Assembly (NCBI GenBank): GCA_017991315.1
Contig: JAGOQS010000002.1
Location: 806,001-870,000 of the forward strand
From: Ferrovibrio sp.
GTDB taxonomy: Bacteria > Pseudomonadota > Alphaproteobacteria > Ferrovibrionales > Ferrovibrionaceae
Length of the DNA: 64,000 nt
Direction of reading: 5' to 3'
In this document: one piece after another, positions 2,382-8,292 of the stretch
How positions within the stretch are numbered: the first letter of the stretch is position 1
Layout: each line of letters starts with the position of its first letter
Made by a program: the position numbers and the translations under genes
The notes under the pieces: generated by a model
What the model saw: only the letters and a program-made list of their open reading frames with translations
Told to the model about the DNA's origin: nothing
Database searches by the model: none

Positions 2382-2852
2382 CTATGCCGGGCGGAATTTG
2401 CGCACTGCCTGCAGGCCGAGCGCCAGGAAGATCAGCAGCACGATGCCCTGGGTGATGGCGAAAGGCGGTTCGGCCTTTTCCGCCGCCTGGCGCAACGCCG
2501 GGGTTTTCATGAATATCTGCACGATCAGCACGAAGACGATGAAATACAGGCTGGCGACCGCGCCGCCGGCATAAACCCAGCGCCAGGCGCCGAGCAGCCG
2601 GAAGCGATAGCGCGCGGACCAGGTCGGCAGCAGCACCAGCAGGGCAATCACTGCCGTGATATGGGACGGCAGTATCTCCGTGACGGGAAACAGGAAGCCG
2701 CTGGCCGAGGTGAGAAATGCCGTCAGCAGGAACAGCTTCACCATTGCCGGGCGATCATCATTGCGCAGCAGGTCCAGCAGCACCGCCAGGCCGGCGGCAA
2801 GCGCAGCGAAGCTGATCAGCGAGTGAACGATGGTGAGAGCAATAACATACAT
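2382..2852 (-). CDS. Small multi-pass membrane protein of unknown function
   Basis: A 156-residue hydrophobic protein starting MYVIALTIVHSLISFAAL. I count four to five transmembrane segments: about 4-24, 36-52 (VKLFLLTAFLTSASGF), 58-76, 92-113 (YAGGAVASLYFIVFVLIV) and 128-146 (GIVLLIFLALGLQAV), with a basic RKFRPA tail. It resembles small integral membrane proteins annotated as hypothetical or DUF2306-like; I do not recognise a catalytic motif. The ATG at 2850-2852 has AGGTG about 10 bases upstream; longer in-frame starts would prepend an Arg/Trp-rich sequence that looks non-coding. It lies downstream of the acyl-CoA dehydrogenase and upstream of DUF721 on the same strand. Confidence 0.7.
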   Translation of the reverse strand: MYVIALTIVHSLISFAALAAGLAVLLDLLRNDDRPAMVKLFLLTAFLTSASGFLFPVTEILPSHITAVIALLVLLPTWSARYRFRLLGAWRWVYAGGAVASLYFIVFVLIVQIFMKTPALRQAAEKAEPPFAITQGIVLLIFLALGLQAVRKFRPA

Positions 2853-2889
2853 GGCGTGAGGCACCTTTGCTGACGGATGCCGCCACTCT

Positions 2890-2906
2890 GCCGCTTCCCA
2901 AGCGGC
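2890..2906 (-). terminator. Hairpin between acyl-CoA dehydrogenase and the membrane protein gene
   Basis: GCCGCTT at 2890-2896, loop CCC, AAGCGGC at 2900-2906 is a perfect 7-bp stem 20 bases beyond the acyl-CoA dehydrogenase stop. No T-run follows on the minus strand, so termination would need Rho. Confidence 0.35.
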
Positions 2907-2925
2907 TACGCCATCATATCTTGGT

Positions 2926-4746
2926 TTAGACGAACCACTCGGGACGCATTTCCAGCGTCGCCGGCTCCAGCCGCGCCAGCAACGGCAGCCAGTAATCCAG
3001 CTTGCCCAGTTCATAGGCGTAGAAGAAGCGCGCCGCCGCCAGCTTGCCCTGGTAGAAATCCGCTTCCGTGCCGCTCAGGCCGGCGGCCAGCGCCTGGGCG
3101 GCGACCCGCGCCTGACGCAGCCACATCCAGGCGACAACGACATGCCCCATCATGTCGAGATACAGGGTCGCATTGGCCAGATAGAGCGCGATGCGGCCAT
3201 CTTTCGCCGCCGGCTGCATCGCCTGGGTGGTCTCCGCCACGCGGGCCAGTGCGGTTTCCAGCGCAGCCGCCAGGCCGGCGGTTTCCGCCACAGCTTTAGC
3301 CAAGGCGCAATCGGCCTGGATGGTTTCGAACAGCAGCTTGAAGCCGGCACCGCCCTGCATCGTCACCTTGCGGCCCAGCAGGTCCATGCCCTGCACGCCA
3401 TGGGTGCCTTCATGGATCGGGTTGAGGCGGTTGTCGCGGTAATACTGTTCCACCGGATAATCACGGGTATAGCCATAGCCGCCTAGCACCTGGATGGCAT
3501 GCTTGTTGGCCTCGAGGCAGAATTCGCTGGGCCAGGATTTCACCATCGGGGTGAGCATATCCAGCAGCAGCGACACGCGCTGCTTTTCCGCCGCATCCTT
3601 TGCCGCATGCTGCAGATCGACCAGATGCGCGGCATAGAGGCAGAGCGCCAGCGCGCCTTCTGTCGCCGCCTTCTGCGCCAGCAGCAGGCGGCGGATATCG
3701 GCATGCTGGATGATCGGCAGCGGCGGCGAGGCCGGATCCTTGTTGTCCGGCGCTCGGCCCTGCAGGCGCTGGCGCGCGTAATCCAGGCTGTAGCGGTAGC
3801 CGGCGATGCCGAGCGAGGTGGCGCCGAGGCCGACACCAATGCGCGCCTCGTTCATCATCATGAACATGTAGTCGAGGCCGCGATGCGGCTCGCCGACCAG
3901 ATAGCCAATGCAGGCGCCATTCTCGCCAAACGACAGCAGCGTGTTGGTGGTGCCGCGATAGCCCATCTTGTGATTCAGTCCGGCAAGCTGCACGTCATTG
4001 CGCTGGCCGATCGAGCCATCCTCATGCACATGGCGCTTGGGCACGATGAACAGCGAGATACCGCGCACGCCGGCCGGCGCACCCTCGATCTTGGCCAGCA
4101 CCAGATGCACGATGTTTTCCGCCAGTTCATGCTCGCCGCCGGAAATCCACATCTTGCTGCCGCTGATCGAATAGCTGCCATCGGGCTGCGGCACCGCGCG
4201 GGTGCGGATATCGGCGAGGCCGGAACCAGCCTGCGGCTCGGACAGGCACATGGTGCCGAAGAAGCGGCCCTCGGTCATCGGCTTGAGATAGCGCCGCTTC
4301 TGTTCATCGTTGCCGAAGACGCCGATCAGGTTGGAAGCGCCGATGGTGAGGAAGGCATAGGCGATGGTGCCGATATTGGCGGCATTGAAGCAGGCGAAGC
4401 AGCCCTGCATCACGCTCCAGGGCAGTTGCTGGCCGCCCTCGTCATAGCCGCGATGCGCCGCCATGAAGCCGGCATTGATGAACTGATCCAAAGCCGCGCG
4501 CACTTCCGGGATGATATGCACGGTCGCGCCATCGAAATGCGGCTCGTTCAGGTCGTTCTTGCGGTTATGGGTCTGGAAATGCGCCGCCGCGATGCTCTGG
4601 GCGGTATCCAGCGCGGCACCGAGCGTCTCGCGGTCATGGTCGGCGAAATAGGGCCGCTCGGCCAGGGCGGCCACATCCAGCACCTCGAAAAGCTGAAAAT
4701 CCAGGTCGCGGCGGTCGATGGTCAGAACAGTATTCTCAGCAGCCAT
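2926..4746 (-). CDS. Acyl-CoA dehydrogenase with C-terminal extension domain (606 aa)
   Basis: A flavoenzyme that oxidises acyl-CoA thioesters to enoyl-CoA, passing electrons to ETF. The order is an N-terminal helical domain, the FAD-binding middle domain (CLSEPQAGSGLADIRTRA, then KMWISGGEHE), and the C-terminal helical domain with the catalytic base in PIHEGTHGVQGMDLLGRKV (Glu446). The extra ~120 C-terminal residues match the acetyl-CoA dehydrogenase C-terminal-like domain found in large enzymes such as the DmdC/AcdA group, which often act on 3-methylmercaptopropionyl-CoA or medium to long acyl chains. It is the first gene of its strand block and has its own upstream gap facing purB. Substrate cannot be told from sequence alone. 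Confidence 0.93.
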   Translation of the reverse strand: MAAENTVLTIDRRDLDFQLFEVLDVAALAERPYFADHDRETLGAALDTAQSIAAAHFQTHNRKNDLNEPHFDGATVHIIPEVRAALDQFINAGFMAAHRGYDEGGQQLPWSVMQGCFACFNAANIGTIAYAFLTIGASNLIGVFGNDEQKRRYLKPMTEGRFFGTMCLSEPQAGSGLADIRTRAVPQPDGSYSISGSKMWISGGEHELAENIVHLVLAKIEGAPAGVRGISLFIVPKRHVHEDGSIGQRNDVQLAGLNHKMGYRGTTNTLLSFGENGACIGYLVGEPHRGLDYMFMMMNEARIGVGLGATSLGIAGYRYSLDYARQRLQGRAPDNKDPASPPLPIIQHADIRRLLLAQKAATEGALALCLYAAHLVDLQHAAKDAAEKQRVSLLLDMLTPMVKSWPSEFCLEANKHAIQVLGGYGYTRDYPVEQYYRDNRLNPIHEGTHGVQGMDLLGRKVTMQGGAGFKLLFETIQADCALAKAVAETAGLAAALETALARVAETTQAMQPAAKDGRIALYLANATLYLDMMGHVVVAWMWLRQARVAAQALAAGLSGTEADFYQGKLAAARFFYAYELGKLDYWLPLLARLEPATLEMRPEWFV

Positions 4747-6385: not shown

Positions 6386-7267
6386 ATGATCGAAGCCTTG
6401 CGCACGCCGGACGAGCGGTTCGAGAACCTGCCCGGCTATGCCTTCAAGTCGCATTACCTCGATCAGGCCAATGGCCTGCGCATGCATTACCTGGACGAAG
6501 GCAAGCATGGCGGCAAGACCTTCCTCTGCCTGCATGGCCAGCCGACCTGGAGCTATCTCTACCGCCGCATGATCGGGCCGCTGGTGGCGGCCGGCCACCG
6601 CGTGGTGGCGCCGGACCTGTTCGGCTTCGGCAAATCCGACAAGCCGCGCAAGGATGCGGTCTATACCTTCGATTTCCACCGTGACAGCCTGATCGCGCTG
6701 ATCCGGGCGCTGAACCTGCAGAACGTGGTGCTGGTCTGCCAGGATTGGGGCGGGCTGCTCGGCCTCACCATTCCGATGAAGATGCCGGAACGCTTCAGCG
6801 GCCTGTTCGTGATGAACACGGCGCTGGCGACCGGCGACCGGCCGCTGACGCAAGGCTTCCTCGACTGGCGCGCCTGGAACAACAAGAATCCGGACATGGC
6901 GATTGGCAAGCTGATCGCGCGCGGCTGCCCGCATCTGACACCGGCGGAAGCCGCCGCCTATGACGCGCCCTATCCCGATCAGCACTACAAGGGCGGCGTG
7001 CGCCGCTTCCCCAACCTGGTGCCGGACAATCCGCAGGCGCCAGGCACCGAGCATTCGCGCCGCGCGCTGGAATTCTGGAAGAACGACTGGCAGGGCAAGA
7101 GCGTGATGGTGATCGGCATGGCCGACCCGGTGCTGGGCGCCCCGGTGATGCAGGGCCTGCACAAGGTGATCCGCAACTGCCCCCCGCCCATCGAGGTGCC
7201 GGACGGCGGTCATTTCGTGCAGGAATGGTCGGAGCAATTCCTGGAGCGGGCGCTGGCCCACCTATAA
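6386..7267 (+). CDS. Haloalkane dehalogenase, class I (DhlA-like alpha/beta hydrolase)
   Basis: Predicted to hydrolyse the carbon-halogen bond of small haloalkanes to an alcohol plus halide. The 293-residue protein aligns by eye with DhlA: oxyanion segment HGQPTWSY, nucleophile Asp120 with the halide-binding Trp121 in VCQDWGG, second halide Trp164 in DWRAWNNK, acid Asp247 in GMADPVLG and His276 in DGGHFVQEW. The acid placed after beta-strand 7, with HFVQE, marks the HLD-I subfamily. The start has GGGAGAGAG upstream. It is a monocistronic gene between purB and a small lipoprotein gene, with no dehalogenation regulator nearby. Real substrate could be a natural brominated or chlorinated compound. 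Confidence 0.88.
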   Translation: MIEALRTPDERFENLPGYAFKSHYLDQANGLRMHYLDEGKHGGKTFLCLHGQPTWSYLYRRMIGPLVAAGHRVVAPDLFGFGKSDKPRKDAVYTFDFHRDSLIALIRALNLQNVVLVCQDWGGLLGLTIPMKMPERFSGLFVMNTALATGDRPLTQGFLDWRAWNNKNPDMAIGKLIARGCPHLTPAEAAAYDAPYPDQHYKGGVRRFPNLVPDNPQAPGTEHSRRALEFWKNDWQGKSVMVIGMADPVLGAPVMQGLHKVIRNCPPPIEVPDGGHFVQEWSEQFLERALAHL

Positions 7268-7289
7268 GAAAAACATAGATCGGCGGAAC

Positions 7290-7332
7290 AATACCTCCTA
7301 TAAGAGGCGAATTAGCCCTTATAGGAGGTATT
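7290..7332 (+). promoter_or_regulatory. Perfect inverted repeat that buries the Shine-Dalgarno of the 7334 gene
   Basis: AATACCTCCTATAAG at 7290-7304 is the exact reverse complement of CTTATAGGAGGTATT at 7318-7332. Inside, GGC at 7306-7308 pairs with GCC at 7315-7317, leaving one bulged A and a GAATTA loop, for 18 base pairs. The right arm contains the full Shine-Dalgarno AGGAGG, and the arm ends one base before the ATG at 7334. As RNA this closes the ribosome binding site; as DNA it is a strong dyad that a regulator could bind. A further CCTATAAG occurs at 7261-7268 over the stop codon of the previous gene. Confidence 0.75.
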
Positions 7333-7333
7333 T

Positions 7334-7852
7334 ATGCATAATATTCCCGTATTCAGGGCGAATATCCGACATCGCCTTCGGGTGCCCTTCCTCGCCCTCC
7401 TGGCCCTGCTGTTTCTCGGCGGCTGCCAGGCCCAGCTCGCCCCGGCCTATGACCAGAGCATCGTGCAGGCGCTCGGCACCGCCAACACCAATGGCATGGC
7501 GCTGTTCGACCAGGTGGCGCAGAACCCGAGCAATCCGCAGGGCTATGCCGCGGCACAGGCCAACTACACGGCACTGATCGCGCTGCTGGAAGCCACCAAG
7601 GTGCAGATCGACAGCCGCCCGATGCCCTCGACGCCCAGCGGCACCAACCTGCTCGGCAAGGCGATCAGCGACATCCAGGCAATGCCGGCACCGAGCTCCG
7701 GCGTGGTGGCCTTGCTGGCACAGACGATCTCGACCATGCGCAGCACCCACGCCACCCGCGCGCTCAGCCTGATCGAGGTGCAGGCCTTCAAGGGCCAGTA
7801 TGTCATCTCGATGCAGCAGGCCCTGATCTACGAAAAGGCGCTGGCGCGCTGA
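7334..7852 (+). CDS. Small lipoprotein of unknown function
   Basis: A 172-residue protein with a basic N-terminus, a hydrophobic stretch LALLALLFLGG and a lipobox LGGC, making Cys31 the predicted lipidation site. The mature part is Ala/Gln/Ser-rich and probably helical, with no cysteine or enzyme motif that I recognise. It starts one base after a hairpin that covers its AGGAGG ribosome binding site. The next gene, 31 bases downstream and on the same strand, encodes a small non-exported protein with similar Ala/Gln composition, so the two likely form one unit. I do not recognise the family. Confidence 0.7.
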   Translation: MHNIPVFRANIRHRLRVPFLALLALLFLGGCQAQLAPAYDQSIVQALGTANTNGMALFDQVAQNPSNPQGYAAAQANYTALIALLEATKVQIDSRPMPSTPSGTNLLGKAISDIQAMPAPSSGVVALLAQTISTMRSTHATRALSLIEVQAFKGQYVISMQQALIYEKALAR

Positions 7853-7883
7853 TAGCCGCCGGCTGATCATTGGAGGACGCAAC

Positions 7884-8219
7884 ATGCCCGCAATCGATGT
7901 GAATGCCCTCGTCGGCCAGCTCACCGGCGCCGTGAACACCGCCATCGGCCAGGATGTGACCCAGGTGCAAGGTTTCGCGCAGGCGCAGATGCAGGCCCTG
8001 GCGCAGCAAGGCGCCCTGGTGGCCTCCGGCATCGCCTCGGGCCAGATCGGGCCGGACCTTGAGCCCTTCTTCCTCGACAGCCTCAAGACCATGGCGCGCA
8101 ATCTGGTCAACGTGCTGAAAGGCCTGGCCGCAGTGATGCTGGAAAAAGCCTGGAACGCCCTGGTTGGCGCGCTGTGGAGCGCCATAGGCGGCGCCATCGG
8201 CAGGGTATTGCCAGCCTAG
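7884..8219 (+). CDS. Small Ala/Gly-rich protein with amphipathic, glycine-spaced C-terminus
   Basis: A 111-residue protein beginning MPAIDVNALVGQLTGAVNT, with no signal peptide. The first half is Gln/Ala-rich; from residue about 72 it becomes a hydrophobic, possibly membrane-active helix ending WNALVGALWSAIGGAIGRVL, a glycine-zipper-like pattern. GGAGG sits 9 bases before the ATG, a strong unstructured ribosome site, unlike the preceding lipoprotein gene. Convergent with the VOC gene downstream. No known family comes to mind; pore-forming or membrane-associating behaviour is only suggested by composition. Confidence 0.65.
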   Translation: MPAIDVNALVGQLTGAVNTAIGQDVTQVQGFAQAQMQALAQQGALVASGIASGQIGPDLEPFFLDSLKTMARNLVNVLKGLAAVMLEKAWNALVGALWSAIGGAIGRVLPA

Positions 8220-8260
8220 AAAAAAAATGCAGCCGCTGGCACGGGAGCCAACGGCTGCAT
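8219..8260 (-). terminator. Intrinsic terminator of the VOC gene
   Basis: On the minus strand ATGCAGCCG (8252-8260) pairs with CGGCTGCAT (8227-8235), with an inner TGGC/GCCA extension, and is followed by a run of at least seven T (8220-8227). This is a textbook Rho-independent terminator for the gene at 8293-8772. Read on the plus strand the hairpin could also stop transcription of the 7884 gene, but without a T-run. Confidence 0.9.
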
Positions 8261-8292
8261 CTGGAGAACAGCTTATGGGGCTGCTGTAGAAC

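Follow-up and report, generated by a model that had tools for sequence, protein, structure and literature searches.

The genome of Ferrovibrio sp. carries a long inverted repeat directly in front of a two-gene cassette, and RNA copied from this repeat is predicted to fold into a stem-loop that buries the entire Shine-Dalgarno (SD) sequence of the first gene of the pair. We give an even chance to the explanation that we place first, namely that the repeat acts in cis as an RNA stem-loop and prevents translation of mRNA that runs into it from the upstream gene. The window, i.e., the whole stretch of 64,000 nucleotides that was analyzed, sets the numbering used throughout, and the features of the locus are collected in Table 1.

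Table 1. Features of the hairpin locus and of its flanking genes, with positions in the window.
Feature	Positions	Strand	Remarks
Alpha/beta hydrolase gene, reads towards the hairpin	6386-7267	+	no terminator-like site between it and the lipoprotein gene
Third copy of the arm sequence, CCACCTATAAGA	7258-7269	+	11/12 identical to 7294-7305; includes the TAA stop of the upstream gene (7265-7267)
5' arm AATACCTCCTATAAG, anti-SD arm	7290-7304	+	exact inverted repeat
Possible -10 box TATAAG in the 5' arm, weak	7299-7304	+	best -35 TAGATC, 3/6, spacing 17
Bulged A7305; inner stem GGC 7306-7308 / GCC 7315-7317; loop GAATTA 7309-7314	7305-7317	+	
3' arm CTTATAGGAGGTATT with Shine-Dalgarno AGGAGGT 7323-7329	7318-7332	+	
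Lipoprotein gene, 172 aa; signal peptide, lipobox cysteine C31, predicted helical	7334-7852	+	no Pfam match
Partner gene, 111 aa; four predicted helices, own SD GGAGG 7872-7876	7884-8219	+	second gene of a conserved two-gene cassette; no family match
Terminator-like stem after the cassette	8225-8262	.	scored on the - strand, the side of the convergent glyoxalase gene

The two arms are exact reverse complements, forming a 15-bp inverted repeat that is perfect and holds no G-U pairs. The 13-nt centre (A-GGC-GAATTA-GCC) adds three inner pairs beyond one bulged A, giving 18 pairs over 43 bases. AGGAGG (7323-7328) lies wholly within the stem, and a single T (7333) separates the stem from the ATG at 7334. 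An earlier sequence-only reading of this DNA had described the long hairpin in these terms, down to its end one base before the start codon, and its description was accurate. The isolated hairpin has a predicted free energy of -28.1 kcal/mol. Folding of 7255-7400, which that reading had proposed as a check, gave z = -4.6 relative to shuffled sequences, none of the 200 shuffles folding equally well. Within a 464-kb sample of the same genome, no other perfect inverted repeat (loop 3-30) has arms of 15 or more, and this one is the longest. A sample of 1.26 Mb holds nine longer repeats, most of them tight-loop stems that resemble terminators.

The SD is predicted to be strongly buried, as had been claimed from the sequence. 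The modeled probability that the SD is unpaired, about 0.0002, was the lowest among the 67 SD-bearing starts of the 464-kb sample, and the predicted burial of this start ranked third among 209 such starts in 1.26 Mb. When the upstream 50 nt were shuffled, the median probability rose to 0.32 (p = 0.003 for the real sequence), and shuffling of the 5' arm alone gave a median of 0.225. The SD-hiding fold is far beyond chance, and the leader has one feature of an SD-sequestering hairpin: in the predicted structure the SD is fully paired in a stable stem that adjoins the start codon.

A general tendency of this genome to hide SD sequences was considered and rejected. Down to P < 0.01, buried SDs were about as common as in shuffles (209 SD starts, 1.26 Mb), and a small excess appeared at the extreme, P < 0.001, with 5 of 209 starts vs 0.8% in shuffles. 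Strong SD hairpins are uncommon but not unique in this genome, since there are two others. One, at L064:18409 on the minus strand (G000:C3:243409), reads CACCTCCTG-T-GGCGG-TGCG-CCGCC-T-CAGGAGAG, then TACG ATG, and precedes a gene that resembles class II fumarase/aspartase by sequence; both genomes of the species carry this hairpin, and the leaders of the sister genomes G003 and G007 have a plain overlapping SD and no such hairpin. The other, at L138:18590 on the minus strand (GCGTCCTCCCGG...CAGGGAGGATGT), lies directly 5' of a gene whose product, small and exported, has a CxxCH haem motif and resembles cytochrome c.

The hairpin lies within the 66 bp that separate the hydrolase stop from the lipoprotein ATG. 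Gene order in relatives indicates that the lipoprotein gene and its partner are an inserted cassette, since seven of the eight same-genus genomes have the hydrolase gene next to the glyoxalase gene and all eight lack the pair. The eighth genome (G008) carries a different lipoprotein gene at the hydrolase-gene position (L014, approximately 2502-3300), which suggests an insertion hot spot. Neither cassette protein matched a family in Pfam, NCBIfam or PHROGs beyond chance level, and their predicted folds, both helical bundles, had no significant PDB match. The two genes are found together in a scatter of alpha- and betaproteobacteria, among them on a Rhizobium plasmid and on Paraburkholderia replicons, and the locus points to an unnamed two-gene lipoprotein family (a lipoprotein of about 175 aa and a helical protein of about 111 aa). 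Neighbors of the family include an M15 metallopeptidase gene (L007) and a D-Ala-D-Ala carboxypeptidase-like gene (L009).

The second genome of the species (G309) has the same cassette and an identical hairpin. The hairpin is absent from the eight same-genus genomes, and its exact sequence was found in no genome searched outside the two of the species. A multi-copy palindromic element was therefore rejected as an identity for the repeat, which occurs once in each of these two genomes and in no other relative or viral contig. An origin of this DNA in a phage or plasmid was also rejected, there being no phage match and one plasmid match at chance level. A comparison of the two genomes shows 5 differences in the 1025 positions of 7268-8292 and 734 in the 38051 positions of the 38-kb alignment, so that this stretch is about four times less divergent than its surroundings. 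This lower divergence means that the cassette is younger in the species, has been exchanged or is more constrained. Note that the 66-bp hairpin region shows zero changes with about one expected, and is too short to show constraint.

Under the explanation that we favor, the stem-loop would bury the SD of the first gene of an acquired cassette. Any mRNA with both arms, read-through from the hydrolase gene included, would fold during synthesis into the 18-pair stem; the locked mRNA would be very poorly translated, and the cassette would be insulated from outside transcription. The analysis establishes the hairpin, its position and predicted strength, its absence from the same-genus genomes and the insertion of the cassette; formation of the RNA stem in the cell, repression by it and its means of opening are inferred. 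The simplest route of opening would be transcription that starts inside the hairpin, past the 5' arm, leaving the SD mostly usable in the model; alternatively, a trans-acting RNA or protein may act on the 5' arm. Besides the stem and its burial of the SD, further observations argue for an RNA lock. Beyond the bulge the stem is extended by the inner GGC/GCC, which is expected of an RNA hairpin and not required of a DNA operator, and the hydrolase gene reads into the hairpin through DNA that holds no terminator-like site. The gene order in same-genus genomes, the predicted freeing of the SD by a start inside the hairpin and the precedent of IS200 tnpA count for it as well. Against it stand the lack of covariation, the frequency of buried SDs in the genome, which exceeds that of shuffles only at the extreme, the lack of a promoter above background inside the hairpin, and a third repeat outside the hairpin that the RNA model leaves unexplained.

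This third copy sustains the main rival to the RNA lock, a DNA operator, which we regard as possible if rather unlikely. Its CCTATAAG half-sites, two direct and one inverted, would bind a regulator of cassette transcription, and burial of the SD would be a by-product of symmetry. The 8-mer CCTATAAG at 7261-7268 overlaps the stop codon of the upstream gene, as the sequence-only reading had noted. It occurs eight times in 1.26 Mb (both strands), three of them here within 65 bp, a rarity that calls for an explanation of the third copy as well, and the match of the copy outside the hairpin extends to 11 of 12 nt. That reading had also proposed that the third copy could compete for pairing or mark a DNA operator. 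As RNA, it pairs only with the 3' arm of the hairpin (10/11), which would hide the SD again rather than release it, so this copy cannot open the stem. Nothing argues better than the third copy for a role of the DNA, and because of it the operator stays a live alternative; the perfect arms, free of G-U pairs, fit an operator too. However, the cassette encodes no regulator, and the 10-mer core of the arm, CTCCTATAAG, is found nowhere else in its own genome, which leaves no regulon with that exact site, degenerate sites being possible. Furthermore, the long central spacing is atypical for operators, and the inner stem would be superfluous.

Covariation of the arms, which had been put forward as a means of deciding for RNA, gives evidence neither for nor against an RNA function. 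The hairpin exists in two copies, which are identical, and the distant homologous loci have no significant SD hiding. We folded ten homologous leaders, one of them an extra member of one clade. Some leaders in the group L031, L033 and L034 pair the SD on folding; when the homologues were compared with shuffles of the upstream 50 nt, the combined p was 0.19, and 0.38 when each clade was represented by a single leader (Fisher). Consequently, a conserved cassette leader was rejected, the SD hairpins seen by eye in L031, L033 and L034 having failed against shuffles. With two identical copies and distant homologues of this kind, the operator keeps its weight as a rival.

A second rival reads the 5' arm as promoter DNA. 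TATAAG would be a -10 box and transcription would start in the loop, so that the hairpin would seldom exist as RNA and the palindrome would for the most part be incidental or a duplication of promoter sequence. The genome has few TATAAN hexamers, with a 3- to 6-fold enrichment upstream of genes, and a start in the loop is predicted to free most of the SD: starts at 7303-7318 raise the probability that it is unpaired to about 0.28, close to the genome median of 0.40. However, the best -35 at a spacing of 17 nt matches at three of six positions, which is ordinary for the TATAA sites sampled, and a scan gave no promoter above background inside the hairpin, under rules that exclude a -10 ending in G. 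We consider this explanation doubtful. The same TATAAG bears on whether the locus has its own promoter in or after the 5' arm, as in the IS10/IS200 type; the hexamer is in place, with a -35 of just 3/6. One reading joins promoter and RNA lock in a two-state start of an acquired non-transposon cassette, in which transcripts with both arms would be locked and those starting at the TATAAG of the 5' arm unlocked; we hold it to be improbable. It is likewise with little confidence that we would derive the two-armed transcripts of such a start from outside or from the upstream copy of TATAAG. If true, the two-state reading would place fold-back protection in a bacterial accessory-gene cassette rather than a transposase.

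The last rival, a by-product of insertion without regulatory function (a palindromic junction or the end of an acquired segment), is very unlikely: hairpin and third copy do lie at the cassette's left boundary, at the point of departure from the sister genomes, and have no counterpart elsewhere in the species genomes or in relatives, but the symmetry spans the full SD at the correct spacing to the ATG and is intact in both genomes, although over a 66-bp gap too short to weigh much (about one change expected).

Several openers and identities suggested for the RNA stem-loop were not supported. The locus shares with RNA thermometers such as ROSE and fourU an SD that is paired within a hairpin of the leader. 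Unlike these, the stem is made of perfect GC/AU pairs, has no U-rich or mismatched pairing of the SD and has no Rfam match, the search of Rfam having returned only three sub-threshold chance matches, none of them a thermometer. A thermometer, and with it the temperature shift first suggested as an opener, is unlikely because no opening is predicted up to 70 C, AGGAGG staying paired in the model. Ribosome passage from upstream, another of the suggested openers, also appears unlikely because 22 nt lie between the end of the upstream stop and the start of the stem at 7290 and there is no leader open reading frame, 7268-7333 containing no ATG, GTG or TTG; given its size, a ribosome that terminates at the stop is too distant to melt the stem. 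Translational coupling and a leader peptide were rejected on these grounds. An intrinsic terminator was rejected as well, the stem being without a T run (its tail is TATGCATA).

It is instructive to set the stem-loop beside known systems. Transposase genes of IS10 and IS50 have fold-back protection from outside transcription. The logic proposed for the cassette is the same, with read-through RNA of both arms silent and one-armed RNA from an own promoter translated; the difference is that the internal promoter is here weakly suggested. Like inverted-repeat operators near a start codon, the locus combines symmetric repeats with an extra half-site; unlike them, it comes with no regulator and no second genomic site with the same 10-mer. 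As things stand, we have one strong predicted hairpin in one species. If the RNA lock is real, read-through protection by burial of the SD would extend from transposase genes to an ordinary acquired cassette, and the hairpin would offer a clear and easily mutated test case. Repression of this kind is established for IS200 tnpA, whose leader contains an inverted repeat that inhibits translation by sequestering the ribosome-binding site (PMC12594629). The locus resembles that leader in having a stable stem-loop formed by an inverted repeat, with the ribosome-binding site in the stem and the gene in acquired DNA. It differs in being a single copy of different sequence with no transposase or insertion sequence, and in being known from its sequence alone. 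By analogy, the hairpin may work like the IS200 tnpA leader and, because no transposase is present, is not a member of that family. Overall, a lock that hides the SD is known elsewhere, and the hairpin described here appears to be a species-specific instance of it.
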